Below are positions 25,542 to 26,729 of a DNA stretch of 64,000 nucleotides, one piece after another (within the stretch, counting starts at the first letter, position 1; each line of letters begins with the position of its first letter). The stretch is from Dromiciops gliroides (Eukaryota; Chordata; Mammalia; Microbiotheria; Microbiotheriidae), in NCBI RefSeq assembly GCF_019393635.1, contig NC_057862.1:267482441-267546440 (forward strand), written 5' to 3'. The notes beneath the pieces are model-generated. The model searched no databases. It saw nothing but the letters and a program-made list of their open reading frames with translations, and was not told where the DNA came from. The position numbers and the translations under genes were made by a program.

Positions 25542-26729
25542 TTATAATGATAGAATTTGGGGTACACCACATTTTTTAAATTGGTCCCCCAATTCTCTGC
25601 ATGCCAAAGTGGCAGGGGTTTCTGAATCATCATTGATTCTTCTAATGCTGTCATAATGACCGTTATGGTAGAAAATATGGAGTTCTTTAGCATCGACTTT
25701 GTCTGTGCCACAAATTTGCCATAGAGGTTCATTCAACTGGTGAATGATTACATTCAGTTGGTTATGTTTGGCAAAGGCTAAAATGGCATCGTTCCCAGCA
25801 CAAATACCAGCTTTTTTCAAATCAGCAACATATTCTTCAAAGGGAATATCTGTTTCTATAAAAGACCTAAAGTCTTCTTTATGACTGAGCATATAATTAG
25901 CAGTTTCTTGTCTGTGTTTGAGATGGTTTTTGGAATGACCTTCTAACTGGTCTCTGAGGGCTCTGAAAAGACAATTTCTATCTCCTGATACCTTACGGAG
26001 TTTGAGTCCCAGGGTTTGCACTTGAGTCATAATACTTGCAAATTGGAACTGTCTATTACCCCTGAGCTGCGTTTGGTTTCTTTTCTCTTTAGCAGCTGGT
26101 TGAGTTTTATCTGAAATTACTTTACCCACAAATGGTGTGGGCTTCATGTGGGAACAATGAATCCAAGATTCTTTTTCTCCAATTTTAATAGCAGTAGGAG
26201 TTGTCAATAATACCTGAAAAGGTCCCTCCCAAGTGGACTGGGTCCCACTGGTCCACTGAAAATTCTTAATATATACATTGTCTCCAGGACTTAAATCATG
26301 CAAGGAAAAGTCTAAAGGACCAGCTTGTACAGCAACTCCTGCTTCATGGAGTTCACATAGCCTAGTTTGTAGTTCCTGTATATAGGAAGCAACAGAAGTA
26401 TCACCTCCCACTGATGATGTATAGACTGGGGAAAAAGTTTTAGCTTGGATAGGAGGGTGACCAAAAAGCATCTCATAAGGAGATATGTGGAGTTCACCTC
26501 TTGGTCTACTGCACAGATAGAATAATGCCATGGGTAGAACATCAGGCCATTTTAAATGGGTTTCAGTACATAATTTGCCAATCATGCTCTTAAGCTCTTT
26601 ATTCATACGTTCAACTTGGCCTGAGCTTTGAGGGTGGTAAGGAGTATGAAATCTAGGAGTTACTCCCAAGAAAGAATAACTCTGGGAGAGAATAGAATCT
26701 GTAAAATGTGTACCTCGATCAGAGTAAAT
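25542..26729 (-). CDS. Integrase C-half fused to OTUD3-like OTU domain
   Basis: Open for 395 codons from the in-frame stop at 26730-26732. Counting residues from 26669, the integrase part holds SSGQVE with the catalytic Glu at 20 and a GPF-type C-terminal domain (STWEGPFQVLL, about 146-156). After HCSHMKP and a lysine-rich linker (about 180-207), an OTU cysteine protease domain runs from about 208 to 346 (nt 25632-26048). It has SGDRNCLFRAL (Asp230, Cys233), EGHSKNHLKHRQE, ICAGNDAILAFA, LNVIIHQLNEPLWQI and GHYDSIRRIND (His338). These are the OTU triad motifs and match OTUD3 best among OTU proteins I know; OTUD3 removes ubiquitin chains. The Gly of the DGNC motif is Arg here. No introns interrupt it, so it came from a processed transcript. 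A C-terminal tail of about 29 residues is unassigned. OTU identity is near certain; activity and expression are unknown. Confidence 0.92.
   Translation of the reverse strand: MYSDRGTHFTDSILSQSYSFLGVTPRFHTPYHPQSSGQVERMNKELKSMIGKLCTETHLKWPDVLPMALFYLCSRPRGELHISPYEMLFGHPPIQAKTFSPVYTSSVGGDTSVASYIQELQTRLCELHEAGVAVQAGPLDFSLHDLSPGDNVYIKNFQWTSGTQSTWEGPFQVLLTTPTAIKIGEKESWIHCSHMKPTPFVGKVISDKTQPAAKEKRNQTQLRGNRQFQFASIMTQVQTLGLKLRKVSGDRNCLFRALRDQLEGHSKNHLKHRQETANYMLSHKEDFRSFIETDIPFEEYVADLKKAGICAGNDAILAFAKHNQLNVIIHQLNEPLWQICGTDKVDAKELHIFYHNGHYDSIRRINDDSETPATLACRELGDQFKKCGVPQILSL
25632..26048 (-). other. OTU deubiquitinase domain
   Basis: About 139 residues with all three triad residues at family positions. 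The first residues sharing OTUD3 character are around FASIMTQVQTLGLKLRKV, so the captured segment probably starts just upstream of the OTU core and ends soon after RRIND. Cellular OTUD3 has a further C-terminal region (with a UBA-like part) that is absent here. An internal ATG (residue 214) lies at the domain start. Confidence 0.9.

Follow-up and report, generated by a model that had tools for sequence, protein, structure and literature searches.

An endogenous retrovirus family of Dromiciops gliroides with an OTUD3-type OTU domain in frame behind its integrase

A 64,000-nt stretch of the Dromiciops gliroides genome (hereafter the window, within which positions are given; genome searches were run on its own assembly, 3.30 Gb) contains an endogenous retrovirus (ERV) whose pol gene ends in an OTU domain of the type found in the deubiquitinase OTUD3. 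The open reading frame (ORF) at 25542-26729 on the minus strand translated into 395 residues ahead of its stop and joined, in a single frame, the end of an integrase core, a murine leukaemia virus (MLV)-type integrase C-terminal domain and the OTU domain. Pfam placed MLVIN_C (PF18697) with an E-value of 1.8e-13 (50.4 bits against a cut-off of 29.2) and OTU at residues 249-334 (E 4.5e-9), and matched the integrase core weakly in the same ORF. In phmmer searches of the PDB, integrases matched residues 1-92, and the human OTUD3 OTU structure 4bou matched residues 229-375 (E 1e-62). When 5.8 billion proteins were searched, nearly all of the best 120 of 559 matches were vertebrate OTUD3s, 55-69% identical. 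An AF2 model of the window OTU built from 72 sequences had a mean predicted local distance difference test (pLDDT) of 84.6, with most of the core above 90, and the window model superposed on 4bou with a root-mean-square deviation of 0.9 Å at 66% identity; a model from 18 sequences was poor (pLDDT 56). Chance is excluded as the source of the likeness to OTUD3.

The initial annotation of this sequence had proposed that the integrase C-terminal domain reads in frame into an OTUD3-like OTU, and translation, Pfam, PDB and protein-database matches all bore this out. Two of its details stood in part. The Lys-rich linker it described between the domains was present, but seemed to be partly OTUD3's own N-terminal tail (a short match, by eye), and the SGDRNC motif it cited was present in the window, but as a local deviation, the usual OTU residue standing there in 70 of the 75 family copies sampled below. 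The 20-residue tail after the OTU was not OTUD3-like and was also found in young copies of the family. Pfam detected no UBA domain in the ORF, which stops 20 residues past the OTU.

The ORF lay within a provirus of 8.45 kb with paired long terminal repeats (LTRs), a primer binding site (PBS), a polypurine tract (PPT) and the 4-bp target-site duplication (TSD) TAAC on both sides (Table 1). By these features, together with the domain matches and database hits, the element is a class I (gammaretrovirus-like) ERV. We take the PBS to resemble the 3' end of tRNA-Arg, and the short interspersed element (SINE) past the stop codon is presumably of a marsupial type. The flank of the 5' LTR (31883-32490) reads, in our judgement, like long interspersed element (LINE)-1 ORF1, and an old LINE is therefore the probable insertion site of the provirus. 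The two LTRs differed by a Kimura two-parameter distance of 0.107, which would put the insertion at 18-36 million years ago if rates of 1.5-3e-9 per site per year are assumed and gene conversion is ignored. The copy itself was defective, its pol being disrupted by in-frame stops and one frame change. The gag and pol genes shared one frame with a TGA between them; this was so in the window and likewise in L097, the single young copy in which that part was read.

Table 1. Features of the provirus, listed from its 5' to its 3' end (RT, reverse transcriptase)
Feature	Position	Strand	Remarks
5' LTR, 552 bp	31331..31882	-	TSD TAAC at 31883-31886
PBS, TGGCAAGCCAGCCAGGAG	31308..31325	-	
gag remains	29675..30856	-	CCHC zinc knuckle in ORF 29675-30178, below Pfam cut-off; closed by the in-frame TGA 29672-29674
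pol: aspartyl protease and start of RT	28715..29671	-	same frame as gag end; RVP E 3.9e-13
pol: second part of RT	28404..28742	-	different frame; RVT_1 E 4.2e-10
pol: connection and RNase H	27315..28247	-	RNase_H E 2.4e-18
pol: integrase zinc-binding domain and first part of core, both below Pfam cut-off	26733..27311	-	stops end ORFs at 27312, 27003 and 26730
Integrase C-terminal domain MLVIN_C	26139..26300	-	ORF residues 144-197
Linker, partly like OTUD3 N-terminal tail (exon 1)	26046..26102	-	by eye
OTUD3-type OTU	25605..26045	-	residues 229-375; catalytic Asp 25980-25982, Cys 25971-25973, His 25656-25658
Non-OTUD3 20-residue tail and stop TAA	25542..25604	-	
SINE inserted past the stop codon	25391..25530 (approx.)	-	AAGCTTTTACCTT or near-identical on both sides
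Region where env would lie	23977..25390	-	68-70% homologous to its counterpart in young copies; PPT CAAAGGGGGGAA at end
3' LTR, 546 bp	23431..23976	-	TSD TAAC at 23427-23430

The window provirus belonged to a large family. A search of the genome with the window OTU gave 2,563 candidates, and all 150 that were scored matched; by hand count, 119 were older copies, the window among them, at 68-100% identity, and the other 31 belonged to a younger lineage at 67-68%. In a genome search with PF02338, 150 of 1,652 candidates were scored, and 104 of these (hand count) lay inside an open frame whose length was exactly 1,392 aa; the four top matches differed in score and looked like other OTU genes, judging from the three whose sequence was read. 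The OTU piece was inspected at 19 of the 104 places with the 1,392-aa frame, and each carried the OTUD3-type viral OTU. In the copy at C3:164666267 a 474-aa gag ORF was followed by TGA and then by pol in the same frame, the first stop of the pol frame within the OTU piece being the OTU end, exactly 1,392 codons after the TGA. The opossum integrase, searched against the same genome, had 3,902 candidates, of which the 150 scored were all 82-83% identical, many of them in 1,392-aa frames. LTR pairs about 8 kb apart recurred in an LTR search (40 of 2,250 candidates scored), and in a DNA tree of 75 copies, whose support values were rough, several OTU-bearing lineages branched off in succession.

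Some insertions were young. At C2:491800069 the two LTRs agreed in 501 of 501 bases and TTTT flanked either side; at C1:129301381 they agreed in 459 of 459 aligned bases, apart from a single 39-bp gap, and the flanks on either side were ACAG. Judged by their LTRs, both insertions are very recent, as a single difference would already correspond to about 0.3-0.7 million years. The 39-bp gap in one young copy (LTRs L085 and L098) was apparently a change in a repeat unit, and the 3' regions of young copies had no blastn match to the window 3' LTR.

The junction between integrase and OTU was common to many proviruses. Among 24 copies displayed, 20 could be read from integrase C-terminal domain sequence into the OTU without leaving the frame, two of them (L046 and L059) having stop codons close by; the four exceptions had a frame change (L016 and L055) or other sequence upstream (L056 and L057). 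The linker of young copies was about eight residues longer than that of the window. The initial annotation had considered that the junction might occur in one copy only, with the OTU part bearing its own TSD and poly(A), and the copies showed otherwise. That a processed OTUD3 pseudogene was retrotransposed by LINE machinery into a single provirus would agree with an intronless OTU, but it is ruled out by the shared junction; the tail is likewise common to many proviruses, OTUD3 homology stops ahead of the OTUD3 stop codon, and the adjacent short repeat belongs to the SINE.

The structure of the host gene pointed to a different route. Host OTUD3 lies at G000:C3:614299593-614315203, and introns divide its exons 1-4 at GDG/NC, KH/V and WQ/I, all three of which the viral OTU runs through uninterrupted. 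Because three introns occur in the host region and none in the viral copies, a spliced RNA was captured, in agreement with the proposal in the initial annotation that a spliced host transcript had entered a retroviral pol. The captured piece covers approximately OTUD3 residues 32-196 (exons 1-4). Homology seems to start near residue 32, judging from a short match by eye between the basal copy L058 (AAAKEQRTLTKPRGN) and the host (ALAKERRNRTEPGAG), and it ends at SE-PA-L, three codons short of the end of exon 4. For the tail and the region downstream of it, blastn against the fetched stretch of the OTUD3 gene gave no match other than an ERV copy of the family itself, and capture of an intron-retaining OTUD3 transcript is not supported. 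That ERV copy, a 3' region at C3:614330178-614331458 (L095 7079-8359), lies about 15 kb upstream of host OTUD3 on the opposite strand; given the copy number of the family, its position is probably due to chance.

The donor was less clear than the route. In a tree with OTUD3 proteins, which had 148 columns and long viral branches, the viral OTUs formed a clade on a long branch. The kinship with OTUD3 was plain, but the link to marsupial OTUD3 that the initial annotation had suggested examining was not singled out: the viral OTUs grouped with non-mammalian OTUD3 (100/93), and a clade of viral and marsupial sequences was not rejected (approximately unbiased test, p 0.51). The donor may belong to either grouping, and we do not claim a reptile origin. 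Exons 1-4 of host OTUD3 were identical at 197 of 199 positions to those of Petaurus and Antechinus, at 196 to those of koala and at 191 to those of Monodelphis and Gracilinanus. Between the window OTU and host OTUD3, synonymous divergence (dS) was 2.7 and nonsynonymous divergence (dN) 0.20, synonymous sites being saturated.

The best matches in the protein search, the Monodelphis Gag-Pol proteins P0122 and P0123, were 79-80% identical over the matched integrase part, but ended just after the integrase C-terminal domain without an OTU. Since these opossum relatives stop at the integrase, the OTU was either gained in the lineage leading to the Dromiciops family or lost in that of the opossum. 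No integrase-OTU protein of another species was among the matches listed in three protein searches (lengths 217-691, about 525-1,670 and 112-355 aa), the first of which covered the best 120 of 559 matches and all of which depend on gene builds that often mask repeats; none was found in IMG/VR either. Predicted Monodelphis MLIP isoforms X20, X11 and X8 (P0146-P0148; muscular LMNA-interacting protein) carried the integrase C-terminal domain of the OTU-less relative of this ERV. In P0146 and P0147 it was read as the last part of the protein; it is either an exonised domain or a gene-model artefact. A Gadus chalcogrammus protein of 853 aa (P0162) combined an OTUD3-like OTU with PF04564, PF00092 and PF00179, which we take to be U-box, VWA and UBC.

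Catalytic residues and selection were assessed in 75 copies (50 older, 25 young), which were chosen and not random. The catalytic Asp was kept in 71, the Cys in 72 and the His in all 75. Pairwise codon models rejected a dN/dS ratio (omega) of 1 in six of seven pairs: omega was 0.19 for the window or L017 against young L066 (p ~7e-10), 0.18-0.22 for two others and 0.42-0.43 for two more, and all four old-versus-young pairs fell at 0.18-0.22. Changes seen in one copy only (singletons) among the 50 old copies looked neutral (147 nonsynonymous and 60 synonymous against a neutral expectation of 2.50, with 10 stops), and changes between lineages differed from them (approximately 63 nonsynonymous and 48 synonymous; Fisher p 0.013). 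These codon-model and lineage contrasts indicated that the OTU was maintained while the element replicated, less strictly than the integrase. The conserved triad, the predicted fold and purifying selection suggested to us that the domain is a working deubiquitinase. In OTUD3, Cys76 is described as the catalytic residue (PMC10566363).

Downstream of the OTU, approximately 1.4 kb of the window up to the PPT (the SINE apart) held no recognised domain. Pfam found no env match in the three window ORFs between the OTU and the 3' LTR, which argues against a complete retrovirus, nor in three ORFs of one young copy that extend from the OTU into its 3' LTR. Because no env was found, the "virus" is best described as an ERV or retrotransposon lineage, an env-less ERV that probably moves inside cells. 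Young copies carried downstream of the OTU an ORF of at most 142 aa with a membrane-like stretch (L085:1251-1676), to which window positions 23994-24332 were similar by eye (TIYITCNMY versus LLYTICNMY). This ORF could be a relic of the transmembrane part of env; Pfam gave it no match above cut-off. A 12-mer in the OTU tail (25578-25589) matched the 3' end of the LTR in reverse complement; within the window, its two forms were confined to this site, 23434 and 31334, likely by chance.

The best explanation overall, which we regard as probable, is that a class I ERV lineage acquired part of a spliced OTUD3 mRNA in frame behind its integrase and that the resulting deubiquitinase likely acts in cis. 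The product would be Gag-(UGA readthrough)-Pro-RT-RH-IN-OTU, if the TGA is read through. Since the OTU would be reached only past the gag stop and all of pol, retroviral biology leads us to expect that it is made in small amounts and packaged with Gag-Pol. An active OTU would enter the particle in this way and would presumably remain on or near the integrase, where, by taking off their ubiquitin, it could spare integrase, Gag-Pol or the pre-integration complex proteasomal loss or ubiquitin-dependent restriction during intracellular retrotransposition. The simplest such model, a deubiquitinase that protects the integrase or the pre-integration complex, is tentative and falls a little short of even; in its favour, the OTU is part of the pol frame and not an ORF of its own, and Ginger1 transposases likewise have an OTU or Ulp1 domain following a Gypsy-type integrase (PMC2836005).

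Several points weigh against an OTU maintained for such a role. The UBA domain of OTUD3 was left out of the captured piece, and the case for action in cis is one of architecture and analogy. The OTU was less constrained than the integrase (dN/dS 0.21-0.22 versus 0.07-0.09), singletons did not differ significantly from changes common to at least four copies (36 nonsynonymous and 25 synonymous; p 0.086), and the window and L016, 97% alike, had an NG86 ratio of 1.39, as expected of dead copies. Constraint was also weak between L017 and L056 (omega 0.71, p 0.29), and 21 of the 75 copies, all of them older, had an internal stop in the imposed frame. Those last two results would suit a domain caught by chance and carried without function while the element spread for other reasons. 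We disfavour this explanation as very improbable, as it does not fit the low omega of the four old-versus-young pairs, the kept triad, the 1,392-aa frame open in most scored PF02338 matches, or the contrast between neutral-looking singletons and changes between lineages.

Two other functions would use the same enzyme against other targets. In trans, the OTU could mimic host OTUD3 and strip K63-linked ubiquitin from MAVS, RIG-I or MDA5, silencing the sensing of element RNA. OTUD3 is reported to have these K63 substrates, to suppress immunity against RNA viruses and to depend for its activity on acetylation of Lys129 (PMC10566363), and by our own count the matching Lys was present in 74 of the 75 copies, although it may be kept for structural reasons; nairovirus and arterivirus OTUs are likewise described as inhibitors of innate responses (PMC3968130). 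However, an extension of pol made only by readthrough should yield little enzyme, tied to particles, and OTUD3 is also reported to stabilise cGAS and promote DNA-triggered sensing (PMC10566363), which would hurt an element that makes complementary DNA. We consider the trans role possible but rather unlikely, and immune protection one among several live options. At the integration site, a tethered OTU might instead deubiquitinate chromatin or DNA-repair proteins and so aid repair or site choice, by analogy with the architecture of Ginger1 transposons and the suggestion of its authors (PMC2836005). This role appears doubtful, since host OTUD3 is described as mainly cytoplasmic (PMC10566363).

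Returning to a deubiquitinase acting in cis, an active OTU would point to an action of ubiquitin on integrase or pre-integration complexes so strong that an element carries an antidote to it. Among the listings and passages covered from open-licence PMC papers, none described an OTU in a retrovirus, and if the OTU is active it would be, to our knowledge, the first deubiquitinase in a retroviral Pol. The family is unusually testable, as it offers the donor gene, opossum relatives without an OTU, old copies that are dead and recent ones that are nearly identical.

Compared with OTUD3, the viral domain shares the OTU (55-69% identical among the matches listed), the catalytic Asp, Cys and His and a model within 0.9 Å of 4bou, but has lost some 30 residues at its start as well as the UBA domain and the C-terminus, and sits behind an integrase. 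Capture of host mRNA by ERVs (PMC4299795), OTUs in RNA viruses (PMC3968130) and env-less marsupial ERVs that amplify (PMC11334065) are already known. Crocodilian ERVs captured KIT-ligand and nectin3 mRNAs, which are under purifying selection, nectin3 replacing env; those genes encode a ligand and an adhesion protein (PMC4299795), whereas here an enzyme domain is fused to pol. Nairo-, arteri- and tymoviruses similarly hold an OTU fold within larger replication proteins or polyproteins, but they are RNA viruses, and the word "retrovirus" is absent from the main text of that account (PMC3968130); among the 50 BFVD matches listed, identity to the window OTU model was 10-22%. The MEBrv 3 ERVs of Dasyuridae resemble the present family as marsupial ERVs that lost env and amplified inside genomes, but are betaretrovirus-like, and the main text describing them does not contain the whole words OTU or ubiquitin (PMC11334065). 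Ginger1 elements are alike in design, with an OTU or Ulp1 protease domain C-terminal of a Gypsy-type integrase, but are cut-and-paste DNA transposons with terminal inverted repeats and CCGG/CCGT TSDs (PMC2836005), whereas ours is an LTR retroelement with an OTU derived from OTUD3.

Membership of the Dromiciops family in Ginger1 is ruled out by its LTRs, its RT and its 4-bp TSDs (TAAC, TTTT and ACAG). Ginger1 DNA transposons are not known to have a reverse transcriptase. The shared integrase-OTU arrangement would be a convergent design. Whether this retroviral lineage has evolved a deubiquitinase, tethered to its integrase, as a permanent component of its replication machinery, still functional, still spreading and convergent with Ginger1, is in our estimate evenly balanced; if it has, placing a ubiquitin protease on an integrase would be an answer, reached more than once, to a ubiquitin-dependent host block against DNA that integrates. 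The parallel also allows a direct test of the suggestion by the Ginger1 authors that ubiquitin proteases are involved in transposition (PMC2836005).
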